Shown here: positions 9,847 to 24,202 of the stretch, one piece after another
Numbering within the stretch: the stretch's first letter is position 1
Layout of the letters: each line of letters starts with the position of its first letter
Assembly: GCA_029865985.1 (NCBI GenBank)
Contig: JARXAF010000162.1
Coordinates: 1-37,495, forward strand
Direction: 5' to 3'
Length of the DNA stretch: 37,495 nucleotides
DNA from: Verrucomicrobiota bacterium
GTDB lineage: Bacteria; Verrucomicrobiota; Verrucomicrobiia; Limisphaerales; UBA9464
Notes under the pieces: model-generated
The model's input: the letters and a program-made list of their open reading frames with translations, nothing else
The model's database searches: none
Told to the model about the DNA's origin: nothing
Made by a program: the position numbers and the translations under genes

Positions 9847-12366
9847 ATGAATCAACCGGCATTGAGCATTGGGTCTGGCAGGGGTGGGTGGGTTGCTGCC
9901 CTTCGATGGACAGGGATCGCATCCCTTTTTGCCCTCGCACTCAATGCGGCTGAAGCACCGGCCAATGAATCCCATTGGGCGTTTCTCCCGGTTTCGCGTC
10001 CTTCCATTCCCGCACTCGAAGCCGCGTCAGAGGTTGTCAATCCGGTCGACGCGTTCATTCAGGCCCGTCTTTCTCAAAGCGCGTTGAAGCCTTCCGCTGA
10101 GGCAGATCGCGGCACTCTCATCCGGCGGTTGTATTTGGTCATGCTGGGAGTGCCACCGACTCCGGAAGAGGTGTCCGCGTTCGTGTCGGACACCCGACCC
10201 CAGGCCTTCGAACGCCAGGTGGACCGGGTTCTGGAAGACGCCCGTTATGGTGAACGCTGGGGGCGTCATTGGTTGGATGTCATCCGCTTTGCCGAGAGCA
10301 ACGGGTTCGAGACCAACCGGGAGCGGTTGAGTGCGTGGCGCTTCCGCGACTACGTGATCAACGCCTTCAACACCGACAAGCCTTACGATCGGTTCATCCG
10401 CGAGCAAATCGCCGGCGACGCATTGGGTGTCGACGTGGCCACGGGCTTTCTGGTCGGCGGGCCAGTGGACATCGTGAAGAGCCCGGACATCACACTCACC
10501 GCCCAGCAGCGCGCCGATGAGATCGACGACATGGTGGGCACCACCGGGACTTCATTCCTTGGACTCACCTTGGGTTGTGCGCGTTGCCACACCCACAAGT
10601 TCGATCCCGTCACCCACACGGAATATTACGCCTTGTCGGCCATCTTCTCCGGTGTCCAGCACGGTGAACGCCCGTTGCCCCCATCACCGGAACGGGCTGC
10701 GAATGTGACGCGAATCGAAGACCGCATTCGTGATTTGGAGAAGCAACTCGAAGCTTACATTCCGAAGGCGGTGACTTCTTCCTCGACGGCTCGCAAGGAC
10801 CTTCGCCCGGCTGTAAACTCCGTCCGGAACGAAGACCGCTTTGCGGAAACCGAAGCGCGATTCCTTCGCTTCACCATCCTGGCCTCCAGCGGTGGCGAAC
10901 CGTGCATCGATGAGCTCGAGGCTGGGGCGGGCAATGTCAATTTGGCTCTGGCCTCGGCAGGAACCAAAGCCACGGCCTCGGGGAGTCTGGCCGGCTATGA
11001 GATCCACAAGCTGGAGCATTTGAATGATGGGCGTCCCGGCAACGCTCGATCGTGGATTTCCAGCGAGGCAGGCAAGGGCTGGGTGCAATTGGAGTTCCCC
11101 AAGACCGTTCGCATCGACCGCGTGGTCTGGGGGCGTGACCGGGAGGGGGGATTCAAGGACCGCGTGGCGACTCAGTACCGCATTGAGGTCGCGACCGAGC
11201 CGGGTGCCTGGAAGACGGTGGCCTCCTCCGAAGATCGGGTTCCCTTTGCCGGGGAATCCACCAAGCCCGCAGGGCCCGTCTACCGCTTTGATGGCATCGC
11301 CGAATCCGAGGCTGCCCAAGGACGGCGTTGGCTGGCGGAACTCGAATCAGCTCGCAAGGAGAAGGGCGAGTTGTCGAAGTCACCCACGGTGTATTCTGGA
11401 ACGTTCTCGCAGCCAGGGCCGACCCATCGGCTGCATCGTGGCGATCCGCTCCAGAAGCGCGAGGAGGTCACTCCGGGAACATTGGCGTTGTTCCAGCCCT
11501 TGACCATGCCCACGAACGCTCCGGAGCGCGACCGTCGTCTCGCTTTAGCGGACTGGATCGCCCGATCGGACAACCCGCTGACCGCTCGGGTGATTGTCAA
11601 TCGCGTGTGGCAGCATCAGTTCGGAGTGGGGTTGGTCAACACGCCCAACGACTTCGGCAAGAACGGCTCCAAGCCTTCGCATCCGGAACTGCTGGATTGG
11701 CTGGCCAGTGATTTGGTGGAGCACGGTTGGAGCCTCAAGCATTTGCAGCGGCGCATTCTGACTTCGGCCACCTGGCGGCAATCGGGAACCCCTCGCAAGG
11801 AGGCCCTGGCGGTGGATGCCGGCAGCCGATTGCTGTGGCGTTTCCCGCCGCGGCGACTGGAAGCCGAAGGCATCCGTGACAGCATCTTGGCCGTCAGCGG
11901 TAACCTCGATCGATCTCGGGGAGGACCGAGTTTCTATTTGCACGAGGTGGATCGGGAGAACGTCTACCATTACCACCCCAAGGAAGCGTTCGGGCCCGCC
12001 GATACGCGGCGCATGGTCTATGCCTTCAAGGTTCGCATGGAGCAGGATGGGATCTTCGGGGCGTTCGATTGTCCGGATGGCAGTTTGGTCATGCCCAAGC
12101 GCAGTGTTTCCACGACGCCCTTGCAGGCGCTCAATCTCTTCAACAGCCGATTCATTCTCGACCAGTCGCAGACCTTTGCCGGCCGGTTGCGGCGTGAGGT
12201 CGGAGACGATCCCGCGGGCCAGGTTCGTGCCGCGTGGCAACTGGCCTTCAATCGGGTTCCGCAGCGGACCGAGGTGGAGGAAGCGGTGGCCTTTGTTCGT
12301 TCGGAAGGGTTGCAGGCTTTTTGCCGAGGCATCCTCAACGCCAACGAGTTTCTGTTCATCCCATGA
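9847..12366 (+). CDS. DUF1549/DUF1553 exported protein with discoidin-like insert
   Basis: An 839-residue protein with an N-terminal signal segment (about residues 18-35). DUF1549 spans roughly 60-290 and contains [38 protein letters not shown] and a CxxCH at C244-C247-H248 ([12 protein letters not shown]), a possible haem attachment site. About 330-480 resembles an F5/8 type C (discoidin) domain ([18 protein letters not shown] ... [20 protein letters not shown]). DUF1553 fills the C-terminus from about 555, with [13 protein letters not shown] and [18 protein letters not shown]. The family is abundant in Planctomycetes and Verrucomicrobia and usually sits beside DUF1501, as here; function is unknown. 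AAGGAG at 9831-9836 serves ATG 9847, 7 bases after the preceding stop. The stop overlaps the next start as ATGA. Confidence 0.9.
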
Positions 12367-13868
12367 GCGCGCCGAACCTTCCCACTTTCCACAGCCCACT
12401 GCTGAATCGGCGTCGCTTCCTCGGCGACACCGGTCTGGGCCTGGGATCCATTGCCTTGACCCATCTTCTGGGCCGACAGGGTCTTCTGGCTGAAACGCCC
12501 GGTCGCCCGGAACCCTTCCGCCCGGCGATCGATCCAGGTCGGCCTTATGGTGCGCGCCAACCGCACTTCGCGCCGCGCGCCAAGAATGTGTTGGTGATCT
12601 TCTGCAGCGGGGCCTGCAGCCAGCTCGACACCTTCGATTACAAGCCGGAGTTGATACGACGCCATGGTCAACCCATGCCCGGCACCGAGAAGCTCATCAC
12701 CTTCCAGGGTGAGCAGGGGGCACTCAACAAGAGCCCGTGGCAGTTCCGTCCCCGCGGTCAGAGCGGCAAGATGATCTCGGACTTGCTGCCACACCTCGGC
12801 GATCTGGCCGATGAGATGTGCTTCATCCACTCCATGCAGGGGAAGACCAACACGCACGGCCCCGGCGAGAATTACATGTCCACCGGCTACACGCTGGATG
12901 GATTTCCCAGCATGGGAGCGTGGATGACCTACGCACTGGGCAGCGACGACCAGAGCCTGCCCGCCTATGTGGCGATCCCTGACCCGCGCGGGAAGCCCCA
13001 GAACAGCGTGAACAACTGGGCGCCCGGATTCTTGCCGGCGGCCTTTCAAGGCACCGAGTTCAACGCCACAAACCCGATCCGCAACTTGGCCCGCCCCGGT
13101 GGCGTGGCTGCATCCAGCGACAGTGCTACGCGGAGTTTTCTCCAGCGCCTCAATGAACGCCACGCTGAGCGGTTTCCCGGTGACACCGAACTGGCCGCGC
13201 GAATCGCCAGCTACGAATTAGCCGCCCGCATGCAGCTCACCGTCCCGGAGGTGGCCAACTTGTCCAGCGAGCCCGAACACATCTTGCGGCTCTACGGAGC
13301 CGATGAAGGTGGAACCAAGATCAAGGACACCCGGGCGGCCTACGCCCGCAATTGTATCCTCGCTCGCCGGCTGATCGAAAAGGGAGTCCGGTTTGTTCAG
13401 CTCTTCAATGGCGCCTACCAGACCGGAGGCGAAGGGGTGAGCAACTGGGATGGTCACAAGGACATCGCCAACCAATACGCCGTGCATGGTCCGGTGCTCG
13501 ACAAGCCCACGGCCGGCTTGCTCATCGACTTGCGTCAGCGCGGTCTGTTGGAAGACACGCTGTTGGTCTGGTGCACGGAGTTTGGTCGCATGCCGACCTT
13601 CCAAAAGGGTTCCCAAGGGCGCGACCACAACCCGGCTGGGTTCACCTGCTGGATGGCGGGGGCCGGAGTGAAGCGCGGGTTCAGTCACGGAGCCACCGAC
13701 GAGTTCGGATACAAATCTATCGAGAACGTGGTCACGGTGCACGACTTCCACGCCACGATCTTGCACTTGCTCGGACTCGACCACCAACGCCTCACCTACT
13801 ACCACAACGGCCTCGAGCGTCGCCTAACTGACGTTCACGGCGAGGTGGTTCAGTCGGTGTTGGCTTGA
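12363..13868 (+). CDS. DUF1501 protein with Tat-type signal
   Basis: A 501-residue DUF1501 protein, a family related to the alkaline-phosphatase/sulfatase superfamily. Residues 15-20 (NRRRFL) followed by [17 protein letters not shown] make a twin-arginine-like signal, implying export in a folded state. Family landmarks are [71 protein letters not shown] and [19 protein letters not shown] near the C-terminus. His/Asp residues in those segments are likely metal ligands by analogy. No activity has been firmly shown for the family. The start is fixed by the 4-base ATGA overlap with the DUF1549/DUF1553 gene, which implies translational coupling. This is the standard gene order for the pair. Confidence 0.92.
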
Positions 13869-16096: not shown

Positions 16097-17752
16097 TCAA
16101 ATCAAGTCGGGCTCGCCGGTGATGCGGACCTTGTCCTGCGCCTGGATGCCGCCGGACTTGAGGCTTTGGTTCGGGTCGGCGTAGCCGGGGATGATGCGGT
16201 TGAGTTGCTCCTGGCTGGCCCCGAGATGATCGCGGATGACCTTGCCCATCACTGAGCGGAAATCGGTCGCGCGCTGCAAGTAGCGGCCGGTGCTCTGGAA
16301 CATCGAGCCATTCATGCCCGTTTGCCAGGCCACCGGATCCGACGGGCCGCAGTTGAAAACACCACTGTGGGTGACCTTGCCGGTGGCGTCGGTGCGCAAC
16401 CCCTTGATGCCGCCACCGGCGACATACATGACGCTGGCCTCGGCGTGGTCGGTGCCGTTGTCGGAATTCTCGATGGTGGTGCGACCGAACTCCGACAAGG
16501 TCACGATGACCAGGTCGTCCCAGCGGCACTGGTCGGCATACCGGCGGAAATACTGCCGGAGCGCGTAGATTGACCAGCCGACCCGCTGCAACAAGCTTGC
16601 GTGGGCGCCGGTGACCCCGCCTTGGTTGCTGTGGGTGTCCCAGCCGTCGATTTGGGTACCGGCCACGAGGGCATCGGTTTTGTTGAGGACCAATGCCGCC
16701 GACTTGAGTTGGTTGAAGTAGCCGTAGGCGGAAGTGGGAACCACATAGCCCGGGTTATTGGTGCCCGACGGCCCGGCTCCGTTCTTGGCGTTGGTGGTCG
16801 GGAATAGATAATACGGTTTGTTGCCGTCCGAGTTTTCGCTGTCGACGAAGGTGTTGCCGGTTTCGCTGAAATCGATGCCGGCAAAGATCTCCAGCGTGCG
16901 GCGCATGTTCTCATATTGCTGCTGGAGCAGGTCTCGGTTGGCTTTGTCGGGGAAGGAGGCGCCCGTGGCTGCCTCGAGCGTGCGGGCGGCCTTGAGATTG
17001 CCGTCGGCGGTATTGGGTACACCCAGCAAATCGTAGCGGGTCGGGTCTGAAAGATTGGTCATCGCCGCGCGGGATCCACGCAGGAGGAGCGGTAGCGAAT
17101 TTTGGAAGGAGACGCCGGTCAGCGAGTTCTTTCCAGCACGGCCCGATTCAACCATGGCTCGGTAGAGCAGGCCGTCCTTGACCATGTTGGTCCGGGGAGC
17201 GCCGGTTTCCCAATAGGCTTGGGAATCGAAGTGGGAACGTGATTGCTGCGGATAAGCCACCCGGTGGATGAGGGCCAATTCACCCGCATTGTAGACCGGC
17301 GTCAGGAATTTGAGTGCCGGATGCAGTCCGGCAAACCCATTGCCCAGTGGCAGTGAGTAGGGATAGGCGAAGGTGGCCCCGGTGGTGCCCGCCTCAGGAA
17401 ACAGCGCCTTGCCCTGGGCGTTCCAGCTTTGTGCGGGATCGACCGGGATGGCGATGTTGTCGCGGATTTTGGGACCGTAGGCGTCGTCGCCGTGGGGTAT
17501 GACGTTGTTGAGGCCGTCATTGGCCCCGCGCAGGAAGATGAAGAGCAGTTTCTTCACCCGGCCGTTGGCGTTCGGTTGTCCGATCCCGCCCTCTGCGAGT
17601 GCCTTCTGGACGAAGAGCGGCACATCGGTCAGCGAGCTGAGGGCAGCCGTGGCCGCTAGGCCGGTGGCGGTGCTGAAGAAGTTCCGGCGGGTGAGGATAT
17701 GGGGCGTATTCATGGCGCGGGAGTCGGAGCGGTTTTCAGTGCCGGACCTCAT
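16097..17752 (-). CDS. DUF1501 protein (second copy, downstream of DUF1800)
   Basis: A 551-residue DUF1501 protein, divergent from the one at 12363. The N-terminus has TRRNFFSTATGLAATAALSSL (about 21-41), a twin-arginine-like export signal, then KKLLFIFLRGANDGLNNVIPHGDDAY, LPLGNGFAGLHPAL, RSHFDSQAYWETG, GWDTHSNQGG and VIVTLSEFGRTTIENSDNGTDHAEASVMYVAGGGIKG. These are the hallmarks of the DUF1501 subgroup paired with DUF1800. ATG at 17752 overlaps the DUF1800 stop as ATGA, which supports it as the coupled start. An internal ATG at 17713 gives a shorter, also family-like N-terminus (MNTPHILTRRNFF). It probably acts outside the cytoplasm; its substrate is unknown. Confidence 0.9.
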   Translation of the reverse strand: MRSGTENRSDSRAMNTPHILTRRNFFSTATGLAATAALSSLTDVPLFVQKALAEGGIGQPNANGRVKKLLFIFLRGANDGLNNVIPHGDDAYGPKIRDNIAIPVDPAQSWNAQGKALFPEAGTTGATFAYPYSLPLGNGFAGLHPALKFLTPVYNAGELALIHRVAYPQQSRSHFDSQAYWETGAPRTNMVKDGLLYRAMVESGRAGKNSLTGVSFQNSLPLLLRGSRAAMTNLSDPTRYDLLGVPNTADGNLKAARTLEAATGASFPDKANRDLLQQQYENMRRTLEIFAGIDFSETGNTFVDSENSDGNKPYYLFPTTNAKNGAGPSGTNNPGYVVPTSAYGYFNQLKSAALVLNKTDALVAGTQIDGWDTHSNQGGVTGAHASLLQRVGWSIYALRQYFRRYADQCRWDDLVIVTLSEFGRTTIENSDNGTDHAEASVMYVAGGGIKGLRTDATGKVTHSGVFNCGPSDPVAWQTGMNGSMFQSTGRYLQRATDFRSVMGKVIRDHLGASQEQLNRIIPGYADPNQSLKSGGIQAQDKVRITGEPDLI

Positions 17753-20310
17753 TGTTCCTGAAAACGGGGTGAACTCAGCAGGAGGGCGGCCAGGCCACGC
17801 ACACGGGTATCGTAGTCCTTGGTTCCGGGAACCAGCCCGGCGAACTCGGAGGGCGTGGTGCCGTTGTCGGTGGTGTTGAGAAACTGGATGCCCAGTGACC
17901 GATACTGGCTGAAGTTGGCGGAGCCTTCAGAAGGAAACAGCAACCGGAGCAGGTAATCGGTGACGGCTTCAGCAGAACGGTTGGCTCCGTTGGTCAGGCG
18001 GAGCGCCAGCAGTGCCGAGGGATCCATCCGGCTCAAGCCCAGTGAATCGGGTGAGCTACGCACGCCGGTGCCCGTCGCCAGTCCGGCTCCGGCCAGAGCC
18101 AGCGACTGCACATAGCGCAAGCGCTCGCTGAGGGTGCCGGCACTGATCCAACCGCCGGCATCTTCTGCGTAGCCGTCGGGTTCGGCTCGGTCGAAGAGGC
18201 GCATGCGGCCGGCCCGGTCCAGCAATCCGCCGGAGGCCACGAGGCTGGGCGCGTCGGCTCTCGCAGTGAGGGTTCCATCGGGTTTGGAGGCGCGGAAGGC
18301 TCGCAACGTGGAGGCCGCGAACTCCAGAGGCGTCTTCACCTTGGCGGCCGCGGTGTTCGGGTTGCGGAAGAGATCACTCTTGAGGATGACTCGCAGAACG
18401 TTACGCATCTGCCCTTTGGGGCCACCTTGGGGAGGGTTCTCCCAGGCCAGCATGCAGTCGTGGACCAGTGACTCCTCGGGGGAGGTTTCCGCATCGGTGA
18501 AGTCGTAGCCGTGGTGGAAGTTGTCGTGCACCAGCAGGCGGCAAAGTTTCACCGACAGATATTCCTGGGTGAAGGGTTGGTCGGCCATGTGACGGACTGT
18601 TTGGTAGCCATCTTGGATGCCGTTGGTGGTTGTGCCGTTGTTGAGCTTCAGACCGTAAGGACGACCCGCCCATGGAGGACCAAACCGGGCAGGCACAGTC
18701 TTGGGCGAGTTGGTGAGGATGTTCCCTTGGGCATCCCGTTCGTAGAACACCCACTTGACCCGGGGATCATGGCGATCAGTCCGGTAGCGGAAGGACCAGA
18801 GTCCGATGAGGTTGGTGACGCTGTTGCGCTCTGTGGCATTGGTGAGCCCGGAGTTGATCATCGCGGTGGTCCGCGGCGCAAAGGGGTTGGCCGCCTGATT
18901 GGTGGCGAGGAGTTCCACCGTCCATCCGGTCCAGGCCCGGGAAATTTGTTCGATGTCGCCTTGGTCGTAGCCGTTGTCCACGCCGAAGGCGAAGAGTTCA
19001 CACAACTCGCGGGCGTAGTTCTCGTTGGCGATGCGGTTGGTCTTGGTGGTGGTGTTGTAGTCGCCCCGGGACAGGACAGTGTCGAGGTAGATGATCATGG
19101 CCGGACTTTCGGCACTGATCTTCAGGAGGTCGTGGAAGGTGCACTGCGGGTTCAGGAAGGCCTGCCGCCAGCGGATGTTTTCTTTGAACTCCTGCCGAGT
19201 CGATTCCGGGCCCGACCAGGCATTGGGCAATCCGGCCCGCTCATCGAAGTAGGTCAAGCCTTTGGAGTATTCGGTGACGAAGTGGTTCTCCAGGAATTGC
19301 TGGAACACCTGGGCCAATTGGCGGCGCGACTGAATCGCGTGGAGGACATGCCAAGCGCGCAAGTCACCGATGGTGGCGGTGCCGTTTTGTAGCCGCGAAT
19401 AGTAGGGGATGGGCGATTCGGCATCCCCCTGCAGTGGGACGGTTGCTGCAATGCCGCTACCGCTGAGTCTTGCGGTCAGTTGCAGGCCTGATGATTGGGT
19501 CAGGTACCAGAAACTCAGGGTGTAAGGAGTGGAGGCGCTGAGGTTTGTGGGGATGGTTTGAATCACCGAATCGGTCCCACTGCTTCCAGCGGTATTTTGA
19601 ACCAGATGGAAGGACGCATTGCCTCCATGCACGTAGTCGGTGGTGCGGGCCGAATGGACGGTGTTGGTGGTCGTGGCCCAGTTGGCGGAGGACAGGGGTT
19701 GTTCGAAATCGCCGTTGATCAGCAAGTTCGCAGCGGTTCCGTTGTCGGTGGTGCCGGCGACCAGACGGAAGTCGTCGAGGTACGCGTCGCCGGCGCCATT
19801 CAAGTACAGGTAGAGTTTGGAGGAGGAGCCCGTGCCCGTGATGATGACTTTCCGCCAAACCGGACCGGTTTCCGTGGATTCGTCCAGGTTTTCCGAAATC
19901 TTCTCGGGTGCGAGTTGCTCCTCGATGTAGGCGTCGGTGCCCAGGGTGGCGAGCCGATTTAGATCGTCCGGGGTTGGGCCGTAAGCGATGCGGTTGAGGA
20001 GTGTGCTGGACCGCACCATTTCGCTCGCCAGCGGCAGGGCTTCGAGTTGGTAAAAACCAGAATCGCCGACCGCGGCTGAATCGGATGTCCATCGGTTGCC
20101 CCAGTGCTTACCGGCGAGGGGTGATGCCGATGTCCCGAGAGAAGGGGTGCTTCGGACCCGGTATTCGGAAACCGAGGGCACCAATTGGAATTCGAGCGAG
20201 GGGCGTCCGTTGGTCCAGGCGAGGGACAGAATGCCGGGAGTCTCGGCAACCATCCGGACCATCCCCAGGACTCCGCAGAGTATCCAGCCGGCGAAAACGG
20301 GTTTCATCAT
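17749..20310 (-). CDS. DUF1800 exported protein interrupted by a carbohydrate-binding-like insert
   Basis: An 853-residue protein with a signal peptide (MMKPVFAGWILCGVLGMVRMVA). The DUF1800 start LLNRIAYGPTPDDLNRL lies at about 104-120. The family then resumes at about 317-350 with LRAWHVLHAIQSRRQLAQVFQQFLENHF, and later has NYARELCELFAFGVDNGY and ISRAWTGW. Between them, about 145-300, is a beta-rich stretch (LINGDFEQPL ... TPYTLSFWYLTQSS) resembling CBM4/9-type jelly-roll modules. DUF1800 proteins are routinely encoded with DUF1501 proteins; their role is unknown. The frame continues upstream to 20460, but ATG 20310 (or 20307) gives the proper signal peptide. It ends in a 4-base overlap with the DUF1501 gene. 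The upstream large exported gene ends 97 bases away on the same strand. Confidence 0.88.
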   Translation of the reverse strand: MMKPVFAGWILCGVLGMVRMVAETPGILSLAWTNGRPSLEFQLVPSVSEYRVRSTPSLGTSASPLAGKHWGNRWTSDSAAVGDSGFYQLEALPLASEMVRSSTLLNRIAYGPTPDDLNRLATLGTDAYIEEQLAPEKISENLDESTETGPVWRKVIITGTGSSSKLYLYLNGAGDAYLDDFRLVAGTTDNGTAANLLINGDFEQPLSSANWATTTNTVHSARTTDYVHGGNASFHLVQNTAGSSGTDSVIQTIPTNLSASTPYTLSFWYLTQSSGLQLTARLSGSGIAATVPLQGDAESPIPYYSRLQNGTATIGDLRAWHVLHAIQSRRQLAQVFQQFLENHFVTEYSKGLTYFDERAGLPNAWSGPESTRQEFKENIRWRQAFLNPQCTFHDLLKISAESPAMIIYLDTVLSRGDYNTTTKTNRIANENYARELCELFAFGVDNGYDQGDIEQISRAWTGWTVELLATNQAANPFAPRTTAMINSGLTNATERNSVTNLIGLWSFRYRTDRHDPRVKWVFYERDAQGNILTNSPKTVPARFGPPWAGRPYGLKLNNGTTTNGIQDGYQTVRHMADQPFTQEYLSVKLCRLLVHDNFHHGYDFTDAETSPEESLVHDCMLAWENPPQGGPKGQMRNVLRVILKSDLFRNPNTAAAKVKTPLEFAASTLRAFRASKPDGTLTARADAPSLVASGGLLDRAGRMRLFDRAEPDGYAEDAGGWISAGTLSERLRYVQSLALAGAGLATGTGVRSSPDSLGLSRMDPSALLALRLTNGANRSAEAVTDYLLRLLFPSEGSANFSQYRSLGIQFLNTTDNGTTPSEFAGLVPGTKDYDTRVRGLAALLLSSPRFQEQ

Positions 20311-20407
20311 ATCAAGATCGGTAGGGACTGATAATTTGCTTAGCAGGTACAGGGCCAATGGTTCCAGTCGGAAACTGGAGAACCGGAATCGGTGATCAAC
20401 ACACGGA

Positions 20408-23400
20408 TCAAGGTTTGGCAAATCCCGGGGCGGTCCATTGCTGATGGCGGCCAGAACCATTGGTGACGGTGCCCAAGCCTCGGAGACGGAAGGTTTTGCC
20501 GCCGGCGCTGGAGTCGAGGCGTAGTCGCGTGGTCACTGGTGGTAGTTCCTGCACCAGAGTCCACGTGGTGGAGTCGTTCGCGGGAGCCGAGTCGATGCGG
20601 TAACCCCGATCGGCCTCGGGCGAGGTGGTCCAAGTGAGTTCGGTGATGCCGTTCTGGATGCGAGCTTGAAAATCGAGGGGAGCCTTCAATGGGTGCTCCA
20701 GCAAGCAGGGGTCGCCTAGCAAGTAGGTGAGTCGCGCATTGACTGAGGCGTTGCGTTCTGCGGAATCGGTGAGCATCGCATGGGCGGGGGCTCCGGTGTG
20801 GACCCGGTCGGTGATCCAGGGCGAGAAAGCGGCGGCCGTGCCAGCCAGCAGCACGGAGTTTTCACTGCCCAGACAGGTGCGCAAAAAGTCTTCTCCATAG
20901 CCGCTGTACCACTGCCCCAGGAAGGAGCCGAAGGCGAACAGGAAGGCGACCCGCGGGACATCGCCAGGCCGTTTCCAGGCGACATTCTTCGCGAAGTGGC
21001 TGTGGCCGGGTTTCGCTGCTCCAGTCATCCCGAGGACCCCGAAATGGGAGTAGTCGGTCTGGAACCCCCAGCGGACGGGTGGCCCTTCCTGAAACAAGTC
21101 GGAGTTCCATGCCACCGGCTGCAGGGGTTCTGCTAGTCCGGATCGGGAAGCGATGTGAACGAGATTCCGATCCACCAAAGCGCCTAAGACATTGGCATAA
21201 CCGATGGCGGTGTCCTGAAACGGGAGGAGTCCTCGTCGGTACCTCCAGGCCTTGTCGAAGTAGCGCTCCAGCAGGGCGATTTCGATGTCGGCTGCGCTTT
21301 TGGGATTGCCCTTGAGTTCGGCGAATCGGCTGTCGAAGTGGGAGAGTCGAGCGAAGTCGATGCGCCCCAGCGGCACTTCAATGCGGCCGGGACGGCCATC
21401 GGGTTCCCGAGGTAGTTCGTTCTGGTCCCAGCGGCCGTCTCCGGCGTCGTTGCCGAGGATGCAGTAGGTGCATTGGCTGCGGGGGCAGTCGGGGCAGCCG
21501 GTCTTGAAGGACTGGGTGTCGGTCCACTTTCCGGTGAGGTCGCTGTAGAAGAGGTCGGCGGGCCAGGCACCCAGGTGGATGCCTGCGGGATCTTGGCAAC
21601 CGATATGTCCGTCTTCGGCAGCCCAACCGCTTTGGGGTATGGTGGGGTGCCCGATGAGCACGGCCACCTGAGTTCGGCCAGGATGCGCTTCGTATTCGCG
21701 TCGGATGAGGGCTTTGATGGCGAGGAGATTGGTCTTGTTCCGCGGGAGTGATTCGGCTTCGTAGCGTCGGCAGTCGAAGTCTTGCGGGTCGGCATCCCAG
21801 TGGCGTGGTACCCGGTGTTGAACGACTTCCCAGCCGTCGGCGATGAGGTCGGCACGGTAGCGCGCCAAGCTTCCAGTCAGGCGCTCAGCGAGGGTTTCAT
21901 CGACCAGCAAGAGCGCGCGTCCGCGGTCGTTGTTCGGCGGTGTGTCATGAGCCACGCACAGTTCCAGTGGTGCCTGATTCGTCCGGAGGACCCGGTAACC
22001 GTAGGTCTGTCCGGGTCGAGCATTCGGGTCGAGGAAGACAGAGGTGCGCGCATCTCGATCTATGGTTTCCCAGTCGGTGGGGTTAGGGCCCCAGGACTTG
22101 CGCGCGATGGGGTAGAAGGCCCCGTGGTCTCCGTCACCCTCCCACTCCCGCTGGAAGTTCAGTCGGATGCCTGAAGCCAGGGACTCTCCGGAAATGCGAT
22201 GGGAGTCATCCGCTTCGAGGGATCGGTGTTCGCCCCGAACGAGACCGTCCGGCGGGTTGGGACTGCCAATGCTTCGGGGTTTCAAATGGTTGCGCACGAT
22301 GACTCGATCCAATCGGCCGAGTGCGGGGGATTGGCCGTCGAGGGCGTTGCCCAAACTGAAGGAGTTGTGGTCGGCACGCGGGCTGGAGGGGCGTGTGTGG
22401 GATTCCCGGGGGAGCCGATCAAAGGTGTCGGCGGTGAAGGAAAGGTGGAAGGTCCAGTTGGTTCGTCCCGTCGCCGCATAGCCATGGAGTGACGATCGGG
22501 GGAGGGGAGACCAAAGGGTTTGCTGGAAGGTCTCGGAAATCCGGGTGAGCCCGAGTCGGCGGCCCGTGGCATCGATGCTCACACGCAATCCCGGGGCTTC
22601 CAAAAGCACGCATTCCGCGCCGGGAGCATCATTGGTCGCGCCATGGAACCAATCCGGGGAGTAGTCGACGGAGATGGATCCGTGGAGCGGTTGGAGGTGG
22701 GTCCGCGTGATGCCGTCGCGGGTCGAGCTCAGTGGGTAAAGCAGCACTTGGCCGGCTCGATGGAATCCGGCTGAACTTCGGTCGAACGAGGGTTCTCGGG
22801 ACGCCGAGGAACCGGGCAACGGGGCCGTGCCGCCGTCGGACTCGAAGCGGTCGGAGTCGAATCCGAAGGAGGACAGGTTTTTTGGCGTGCTGCTCGACGG
22901 GTTGTCAGGATCGGTGCCGTCGAGGAACTCCTGGAGATCGGTGCGCCCATCGCGGTCGCGGTCGCCGCGTCCAGGGACCGACCGTGACTTCGGTGTCTCC
23001 GTCGTGTCCGCAAGGTCCGATTCGCGCCGGAGGGAGCTCGATCCGATCCAGCGAAAACCATGGCGCGGGAACTCTCGGAGCACCGTGGCCGTGGCCACAG
23101 TGACCAGAGCATTGCTGACGGTGGTTCCGTTGACCCAGTAGTCGATGGGCCAATGGTGGAAGCCGAGTTTGATGGGGTTGATGCCACCGGCCTCGGTCAA
23201 GGCCTGGTCTTGGATGGCACGGGGTTTCAGGTACAGCGCCCGGGTGATCAGCGTTGGCAAGGTCTCGGGCGGGAGGACGGTCATGCTCGGAAGAACCGCG
23301 GCCAATTCCGGGTCGAGGAGGGTGTGCCCGAAGCCAGGGCGTATCCGCCGACTCCCCGGAGGCAAATAGAGTGACCCCGCCGCTTCAACGAAGGCATCGG

Positions 23401-24202
23401 TGACCGTGGGCGGAACGATCGCGTTCGGGTTTCCGTCGGGCGAGGCGTGGGTGAAGCCCCGGGAATCGGCCACTTCTCCGATCACGCAGCGCAGCAATTC
23501 GAGCGAGGAATCCGATGACCTTCGGTTGAGGATGTCGGCTCGGGCGATGGTGAGTTGCTGACCGTTCACACGGCTCGACTTCAAGTCGCTGAAGGGGGCC
23601 GTCACCCGGTGGAAGAGGCCGTTGCGGAGCGCCAAGGTGCTGTTGGTGGATTCGATGCCGACGTCGCAGTGCTGGATCTCGAAATGCCACAAGGCCGCGG
23701 TAGTCCCGGTCCACTGCAAAGCCACCCGGGCGTGGGAGATGCGGAAGTCATTCCAGCGGGACTGGTCGGACTCCAAGCGTGCACCGTTCACGGAAAGGGC
23801 GACGTCGGCGTAGGGGTTGGTTTTTGGGGTTCCCACGGATCCCGGAACAGGCTCTCCTGCTGAATCATCGTCGGAGGCGGTGAACACGATGGGGGACTCG
23901 GGCGTGGCCTGCCAAGAAACCCGGGCGTCTTTTCCCAACTCCAACCCCGCTGATCTTCCCGGCAGGAACTTGATCACGCATCCACCCTCGAAGCGCACCG
24001 ATCCCTCCAATCGAATGGGTCTCCCAACCAGGTAGGTGAGTCCTGCTCGGAAGGTTTGGTTTTTGCCGGAGACTACCTCGATGGGAGCCGCCAACACCGG
24101 CAGCCATCCGGCGAGGAAAAGTAGCACCAGAAGCCCCGTTATCCGGTGTTCCCAGAAGGACGCACCGCGGGATTCCGCTTCAATTCCGACAATGCTTGGC
24201 AT
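20408..24202 (-). CDS. large exported mosaic protein with C25 (gingipain)/caspase-like region
   Basis: A 1264-residue secreted protein. After a signal peptide (about 20-39) come beta-helix-like repeats (about 60-240); an Asp-rich calcium loop with DRDRDGRTDLQEFLDGTDPD (about 414-433), like thrombospondin-3 or dockerin repeats; a lectin/LamG-like stretch (about 485-640); an Fn3-like module (about 676-745); then a 400-residue region from RALLLVDETLAERL (762). That region has VAVLIGHPTIPQSG, GAWPADLFYSDLTGKWTD, PLGRIDF, FAFGSFLGQW and LLGDPCLLEH, whose order recalls peptidase C25-like caspase folds. A second Fn3-like module (1185-1245) ends it. No obvious His-Cys dyad was identified, so activity is uncertain. 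ATG 24202 was chosen over TTG 24256 for the signal peptide. It is divergent from the FKBP gene and probably leads the DUF1800/DUF1501 cluster. Confidence 0.8.
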   Translation of the reverse strand: MPSIVGIEAESRGASFWEHRITGLLVLLFLAGWLPVLAAPIEVVSGKNQTFRAGLTYLVGRPIRLEGSVRFEGGCVIKFLPGRSAGLELGKDARVSWQATPESPIVFTASDDDSAGEPVPGSVGTPKTNPYADVALSVNGARLESDQSRWNDFRISHARVALQWTGTTAALWHFEIQHCDVGIESTNSTLALRNGLFHRVTAPFSDLKSSRVNGQQLTIARADILNRRSSDSSLELLRCVIGEVADSRGFTHASPDGNPNAIVPPTVTDAFVEAAGSLYLPPGSRRIRPGFGHTLLDPELAAVLPSMTVLPPETLPTLITRALYLKPRAIQDQALTEAGGINPIKLGFHHWPIDYWVNGTTVSNALVTVATATVLREFPRHGFRWIGSSSLRRESDLADTTETPKSRSVPGRGDRDRDGRTDLQEFLDGTDPDNPSSSTPKNLSSFGFDSDRFESDGGTAPLPGSSASREPSFDRSSAGFHRAGQVLLYPLSSTRDGITRTHLQPLHGSISVDYSPDWFHGATNDAPGAECVLLEAPGLRVSIDATGRRLGLTRISETFQQTLWSPLPRSSLHGYAATGRTNWTFHLSFTADTFDRLPRESHTRPSSPRADHNSFSLGNALDGQSPALGRLDRVIVRNHLKPRSIGSPNPPDGLVRGEHRSLEADDSHRISGESLASGIRLNFQREWEGDGDHGAFYPIARKSWGPNPTDWETIDRDARTSVFLDPNARPGQTYGYRVLRTNQAPLELCVAHDTPPNNDRGRALLLVDETLAERLTGSLARYRADLIADGWEVVQHRVPRHWDADPQDFDCRRYEAESLPRNKTNLLAIKALIRREYEAHPGRTQVAVLIGHPTIPQSGWAAEDGHIGCQDPAGIHLGAWPADLFYSDLTGKWTDTQSFKTGCPDCPRSQCTYCILGNDAGDGRWDQNELPREPDGRPGRIEVPLGRIDFARLSHFDSRFAELKGNPKSAADIEIALLERYFDKAWRYRRGLLPFQDTAIGYANVLGALVDRNLVHIASRSGLAEPLQPVAWNSDLFQEGPPVRWGFQTDYSHFGVLGMTGAAKPGHSHFAKNVAWKRPGDVPRVAFLFAFGSFLGQWYSGYGEDFLRTCLGSENSVLLAGTAAAFSPWITDRVHTGAPAHAMLTDSAERNASVNARLTYLLGDPCLLEHPLKAPLDFQARIQNGITELTWTTSPEADRGYRIDSAPANDSTTWTLVQELPPVTTRLRLDSSAGGKTFRLRGLGTVTNGSGRHQQWTAPGFAKP

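Follow-up and report, generated by a model that had tools for sequence, protein, structure and literature searches.

The gingipains RgpB and Kgp and the protein PorU are exported, multi-domain members of peptidase family C25 of clan CD, and PorU acts as a sortase. In a second clan CD family, caspase p20, the pseudo-orthocaspases have their His-Cys dyad replaced by Tyr and Ser and are presumed inactive, according to excerpts of PMC6426788. In Gammaproteobacteria and Agrobacterium vitis, DUF1800 and DUF1501 proteins are encoded as a pair that travels with chitin synthase genes, and DUF1501 carries a twin-arginine motif linked to Tat (twin-arginine translocation) export (excerpts of PMC5122149). 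The locus described here joins relatives of these proteins. The window, meaning the whole stretch of DNA that was analyzed, comprised 37,495 nucleotides of contig JARXAF010000162.1 (GenBank assembly GCA_029865985.1; Verrucomicrobiota bacterium, Limisphaerales, UBA9464). Three co-directional open reading frames on its minus strand encode a large exported protein of 1264 residues (20408 to 24202, stop included), a DUF1800 protein of 852 residues (17749 to 20307, stop included) and a DUF1501 protein of 538 residues from its favoured start (16097 to 17713). This confirmed the same-strand cluster with a 1264-residue protein that an earlier sequence-only reading of the window had described. The large gene starts at ATG 24202 and has homologs across the genus. 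Judging from signal sequences read by eye, all three proteins appear to be exported.

Predicted fold and active site

Residues 665 to 1264 of the large protein were modelled from 61 aligned sequences, giving a predicted local distance difference test score (pLDDT) of 90.7 and a predicted template modelling score (pTM) of 0.93. The top structure matches were RgpB (4ief, Z 24.9; 1cvr, Z 24.7) and Kgp (4rbm, Z 23.7; 6i9a, Z 23.4). These alignments spanned 354 to 361 residues at 11 to 13% identity, so that the likeness to the C25 proteins extends over approximately 360 residues and includes the IgSF/Fn3-like domain that follows the peptidase domain. PorU was match 5 (Z 12.6); the remaining listed matches had Z scores of 11.6 or less and were mostly single Fn3 domains. 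Z scores were taken from VIA, as a second look at the same candidates as Foldseek; in the Foldseek ranking alone, the best 50 matches contained no gingipain and were mostly Fn3 domains.

PF01364 (Peptidase_C25) was matched by 9 of 21 homologs at E ≤ 1 (best 5.3e-7). The window protein itself gave no PF01364 match at E ≤ 1 and lies below the family cut-off, and a PDB sequence search with the C25-like profile returned Fn3-type chains. Taken together, the model, the RgpB and Kgp matches at Z 23 to 25, the homologs matching PF01364 and the profile-profile alignment given below strongly support a gingipain (peptidase C25) fold for the C-terminal half of the large protein. A caspase- or gingipain-like segment had been proposed by the sequence-only reading, with a structure model compared with peptidase C25 as the suggested check; run on residues 665 to 1264, this check found the gingipain fold. 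The C25-like domain corresponds to residues 758 to 1169, approximately (20696 to 21931, minus strand).

The canonical C25 reference consisted of 13 domains from related genomes of other genera (L178-L187, L193, L194 and L200). They were drawn from 26 PF01364 matches, the rest of which were partial, weak or not among the loci fetched. The GHG motif and the Cys were kept in all 13 domains. No PF01364 match at E ≤ 0.001 was obtained in the 19 genomes of the window's genus.

A global profile-profile alignment to these 13 domains (E 1.7e-14) placed Ser1093 of the window protein (codon 20924 to 20926, minus strand) on the catalytic Cys and Tyr1051 (codon 21050 to 21052, minus strand) on the catalytic His. 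A local profile-profile alignment (E 7e-10) covered the first part only and stopped short of the Ser1093 site. Three mafft modes, run with 40 of the family's 61 members, each put Ser1093 on Cys, with His on Tyr1051 once and on Asp1050 twice. Over the four alignments covering the site, Ser1093 therefore faced Cys in 4/4, and the catalytic His faced Tyr1051 in two and Asp1050, adjoining it, in two. Set against the residues of family C25, the window protein lacks the catalytic Cys (Ser1093) and the catalytic His of GHG (Tyr1051 or Asp1050).

The Ser was traced through 152 aligned rows. The column was covered in 121 of them and held Ser in 121/121, or 105/105 when only distinct rows were counted. 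Among the 68 loci L110-L177, of which L110 is a paralog within a genome of the window's genus and the rest apparently lie outside it, Ser was found in 71/71 rows and His at the His column in 2/71. No conserved His or other obvious base at the catalytic His place was seen in the family alignments. Relatives of the domain were collected with two search patterns that lie away from the Ser site; at least 509 were confirmed among at least 586 pattern matches. By their record titles, the 80 relatives kept belong to Verrucomicrobiota, Planctomycetota, Bacteroidota, Acidobacteriota, Omnitrophota and other groups. The alignments point to a large family of C25-fold proteins in which the nucleophile Cys is replaced by an apparently invariant Ser. 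No mention of a Ser variant of C25 was found in the openly licensed literature searched. One Flavobacteriales member of the Ser family (L146) carries a C-terminal sorting domain of the type IX secretion system (TIGR04183, over its cut-off), which fits a surface or secreted location.

The ratio of nonsynonymous to synonymous substitution rates (dN/dS), compared in five genus pairs, was 0.07 to 0.10 for the C25-like domain, against 0.13 to 0.25 for the N-terminal and middle segments. In the two most distant pairs, synonymous sites are at or near saturation. At these values the C25-like domain is not decaying. The 90-residue C-terminal Fn3 domain gave 0.066 in the closest pair and 0.17 to 0.29 in the others.

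The window protein thus differs from the gingipains and PorU in having Ser for Cys and Tyr or Asp for His, in its 11 to 13% identity and in the missing PF01364 match. With the pseudo-orthocaspases it shares the clan CD fold and Tyr plus Ser at the dyad positions, as far as these are described in the same excerpts (PMC6426788). Those proteins belong to the caspase p20 family, whereas the best fold matches of the window protein are to C25, and its Pfam matches at E ≤ 1 included no caspase family.

Gene order

The large gene was found in 19/19 genomes of the genus (some homologs being cut by contig ends) and DUF1800 in 18/19, with at most 11 candidates scored per genome in the large-gene search. 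The two genes were adjacent and on one strand in 17/17 genus contigs holding both, at identities down to 47%; in G011 and G017, contig ends separate the genes or cut them off. DUF1501 came next after DUF1800 in all 16 genus contigs with room for it, the contig of G005 ending within DUF1800. The trio was kept in L086 and L087, though neither flank showed the PGM, FKBP and FAD genes that adjoin it in the window, and also in L088 and L089, where only one flank is visible.

Outside the genus, a C25-like gene stood beside DUF1800 in 0/20 loci fetched, 17 with more than 6 kb upstream and three (L052, L054 and L057) with less than 2.5 kb. DUF1501 followed DUF1800 in 40/40 other loci (two sets of 20). 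Searches of 113 class genomes at E ≤ 1e-20 found DUF1800 in 62 of them and C25-like genes in 16 (at most 13 candidates per genome being scored in the C25-like search). Among the matches listed, the window's genome alone had the two side by side, and 12 of the 15 others hold both apart. The sequence-only reading had proposed a survey of gene order, with the large gene expected to be conserved next to DUF1800: this held throughout the genus and failed at the outside loci and in the other class genomes.

Other C25-like genes were present at 87 loci, of which at least four were seen twice. Within the stretches fetched, one of these loci has DUF1800 (L143), two have a DUF1501-type gene (L075 and L116) and two a DUF1549/DUF1553-type gene (L116 and L135); bases 1-5490 of L075 and part of L137 were masked. 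The Opitutaceae locus L143/L318 has the order C25-like, DUF1800, DUF1501, with a terminator-like hairpin, recognized by eye, between the first two genes. It was considered as an independent trio and set aside as a chance adjacency on account of this hairpin and of a DUF1800 belonging to another subfamily. Since the trio was not found as a likely operon elsewhere in these searches, it is regarded as a genus-level arrangement.

Gene junctions

The DUF1800 protein ends in EQ, and its final Gln codon CAA followed by TGA creates the sequence ATGA (17749-17752) by itself. ATGA was present in 11/17 genus sequences; the remaining six read CAG-TGA here, and L088, L089 and L095 among them have an in-frame stop ahead of the Tat segment. 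The longest reading of DUF1501, 551 residues, begins at 17752. The start common to all sequences is M14 of this reading, ATG 17713, 35 bases past the DUF1800 stop. From this comparison, the conserved start is probably ATG 17713 and the ATGA overlap not the start of DUF1501; a longer DUF1501 reading is possible in the 11 sequences with ATGA. The overlap noted by the sequence-only reading exists, but six genus sequences lack it and translation would probably begin downstream.

A gap of 100 bases separates the large-gene stop from the DUF1800 ATG at 20307. No minus-strand terminator-like site was found in it, and the single promoter-like site ahead of DUF1800 is at chance level. Co-transcription of the large gene and DUF1800 is plausible from these features.

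Domains of the large protein

The window protein had no match in Pfam or NCBIfam at E ≤ 1 and none among PDB sequences at E ≤ 10; for the N-terminal half, the Pfam and PDB sequence searches gave no Pfam match and no credible PDB match. Its domains, all on the minus strand, were placed as follows. An approximate Sec-type signal peptide (24065 to 24202; ...GLLVLLFLAGWLPVLA-A) was read by eye from the translation. The N-terminal module (residues 49 to 400, approximately; 23003 to 24058), in which the putative beta-helix of the sequence-only reading would lie, recurs in other large Verrucomicrobial proteins. A TSP3-type calcium loop (residues 412 to 436, approximately; 22895 to 22969) was located by alignment to homologs: TSP3_bac was matched in 7/12 genus proteins at E ≤ 1 (best 4.8e-7), the window copy itself being unmatched. 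The calcium loop claimed by the sequence-only reading is supported by these matches.

The middle segment (residues 447 to 645, approximately; 22268 to 22864) is lectin-like only weakly. Its profile matched residues 67-148 of L064 (E 2.5e-8), just ahead of the Laminin_G_3 match at 173-279 of that protein. The stretch homologous to the middle segment mostly precedes Laminin_G_3 in L064 and was barely detected in L065. Laminin_G_3 in these two proteins was tried as support for a lectin and downgraded to weak, as the homologous stretch hardly overlaps the match. Of the lectin-like segment proposed earlier there is left a relative adjoining Laminin_G_3 in L064.

Ahead of the C25-like domain, a tentative Fn3-like domain (residues 665-757; 21932 to 22210) was placed from strands in the model and weak profile matches to Fn3 chains, e.g. 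titin. The Fn3/IgSF-like domain after it (residues 1170-1264; 20411 to 20695) is clear from profile and structure matches, which back the Fn3-like claim of the sequence-only reading at the C-terminus.

In G009 a second copy of the large gene was observed (L078, G009:C4; also L107), split across several frames and, like the window copy, with an FKBP gene next to it. It may be a duplication, a strain mixture or an assembly error.

DUF1501 and DUF1800 proteins

The family identities given by the sequence-only reading were correct: DUF1501 matched PF07394 with 69.8 bits (cut-off 27) and DUF1800 matched PF08811 with 218.1 bits (cut-off 26.1). The source genome, of 3.6 Mb in 216 contigs, has 45 DUF1501 matches and one DUF1800 gene.

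The DUF1501 protein, whose start was set by comparison, has the Tat signal LTRRNFF. RRxF was kept in 32/32 subfamily relatives, in agreement with a twin-arginine signal; the Pfam TAT_signal model was below cut-off (E 0.25). In these 32 relatives, D79 and S173-H174 were found in 32/32, D372, H374, E421, D435 and H436 in 30/30 and H509 in 29/29 of the rows covering them. In a wider set of 38 DUF1501-like proteins, H174, D372, H374, E421 and H436 were kept in 38/38 and D435 in 37/38. The conserved residues are candidates for the ligands of two metal ions and for a nucleophile, and Pfam places DUF1501 in the alkaline-phosphatase clan. A model built from these 38 rows was poor, with a pLDDT of 43; with it, 50/50 matches listed were alkaline-phosphatase superfamily members by title or known family. 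The best was PafA (Z 12.7), and ENPPs, sulfatases, phosphonoacetate hydrolase, phosphopentomutase and MCR-1 were also among them. A PDB sequence search gave nothing credible.

Viral-contig scans for DUF1800 and DUF1501 relatives gave 1, 0, 67 and 0 loci. The 67 loci (L244-L310) lie in IMG/VR viral contigs, some longer than 200 kb, and encode DUF1501-like proteins; they may belong to phages or be pieces of host DNA.

The DUF1800 protein has a Sec-type signal peptide, read by eye, and a carbohydrate-binding-like insert at residues 143-300, approximately (19408 to 19881, minus strand). The insert was placed from a sub-threshold match to CBM_4_9 (E 5e-4) at residues 244-324 of a 903-residue reading, equal to 193-273 of the 852-residue protein. 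The insert, of approximately 150 residues, is skipped in the matches of several relatives. A PDB sequence search returned Fn3-like stretches only.

At 9847-13868, on the plus strand and 2 kb from the trio, lie a gene taken from its motifs to be of DUF1549/DUF1553 type and then a second DUF1501 gene, which brings the two kinds of DUF1501 pair close together in the window. Homologs of the first gene were found at 18/20 other DUF1501 loci of the source genome. As in the trio, a large partner precedes DUF1501 in the DUF1549/DUF1553-DUF1501 pairs of Planctomycetes-Verrucomicrobia-Chlamydiae bacteria; the partner there is DUF1549/DUF1553, not DUF1800, and remote kinship of the partners is possible. 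The window's own DUF1800 subfamily gave no signal against DUF1549/DUF1553 (E 0.32). With 20 canonical DUF1800 proteins (L224-L243) against DUF1549/DUF1553 (L204-L223), an E of 8.4e-5 was obtained over the C-terminal part (probability 60%) and of 3e-5 globally (probability 47%). Controls gave E 0.8 for a reversed profile and, over 60 column shuffles, 0.036 at best; with all DUF1800 pooled, the match fell to E 0.011. The kinship is a lead, not a result.

The trio resembles the chitin synthase-linked pair in having the same two families together and a twin-arginine motif in DUF1501; chitin synthase accompanies that pair, and no C25-like gene is mentioned in the excerpts of its description (PMC5122149).

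Discussion

The reading tentatively preferred here, at somewhat less than an even chance, is that the trio forms an exported polymer-handling module. Catalysis would fall to DUF1501, exported in the folded state by Tat. As a metal-dependent enzyme of the alkaline-phosphatase superfamily, either hydrolase or transferase, it would act on the phosphate or sulfate esters of a polysaccharide, in the envelope or outside the cell. DUF1800 would be its partner, with a carbohydrate-binding-like insert in this lineage. The large protein would be a calcium-stabilized, multi-domain and non-proteolytic binder whose pseudo-peptidase domain serves as a recognition surface. With a gingipain-fold protein that lacks the cutting residues, the trio is suggestive of polymer handling at the surface rather than of a protease system. 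The surface polymer-processing role suggested by the sequence-only reading may thus still apply, with DUF1501 and not the large protein as the enzyme.

Several points weigh against this module. The substrate is itself a proposal. Beyond the genus, the large gene and the DUF1800-DUF1501 pair were seen apart, and their link may be confined to the lineage or not exist. D79, S173 and H509 were kept in only 8, 15 and 8 of the 38 wider-set proteins, which makes the assignment of a nucleophile and of some of the ligands tentative, and at a pLDDT of 43 the structural matches of DUF1501 are weak evidence. The CBM_4_9 match does not reach its cut-off, support for a lectin-like segment is weak and the N-terminal module is unassigned. 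The variation of the three residues in distant DUF1501 proteins and the weaker lectin support slightly lowered the estimate.

The large protein was earlier suggested to recognize and perhaps cleave a substrate. Its gingipain fold would suit a gingipain-like cysteine peptidase acting on protein or polymer, but both the Cys and the His of the dyad are absent, and the Tyr/Ser state is presumed to be inactive in pseudo-orthocaspases (excerpts of PMC6426788). Cleavage in this manner was rejected and is regarded as highly improbable; the nucleophile position holds Ser in every homolog covering it, without a conserved His. An active enzyme of another kind, with Ser1093 as nucleophile and a base other than the usual His (a serine peptidase or a sortase-like transferase), is unlikely. 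The Ser in all 105 distinct covered rows, the strong purifying selection on the domain and the PorU structure at match 5 speak for it; against it stand the missing His or obvious base at the equivalent place and, in the same excerpts (PMC6426788), the presumed loss of proteolysis with Tyr/Ser.

A more serious competitor, though still doubtful, is that the large gene is a mere neighbour, lying on the strand of the DUF1800-DUF1501 pair within one genus but having no share in its function. This agrees with the lack of a C25-like gene at the 20 outside DUF1800 loci (three with little upstream sequence), the lack of adjacency in the 15 other class genomes with a C25-like gene, the hairpin at L143/L318 as the sole other adjacency found and the chance-level promoter-like site ahead of DUF1800. 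Simple neighbourhood is harder to reconcile with adjacency in 17/17 genus contigs down to 47% identity, and with its retention in L086 and L087 without the window's flanking genes. A broader proposal, that a large, apparently unnamed gingipain-fold family with Cys replaced by a fixed Ser acts as a Ser-dependent transferase, sortase-like, on surface polymers and was recruited in one genus to DUF1800-DUF1501, and that DUF1800 and DUF1549/DUF1553 are remote relatives so that both DUF1501 pairs form one system, is a long shot.

For DUF1501, matched 45 times in the source genome and called a protein of unknown function in the excerpts of literature consulted, the superfamily hint gives a lead to function. 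The part of general interest is the widespread C25-fold family with Ser apparently fixed at the Cys nucleophile. If true, this Ser variant of C25 would parallel the Tyr/Ser pseudo-orthocaspases in another clan CD family, and whether it represents a pseudo-enzyme or a new enzyme is a decidable question.

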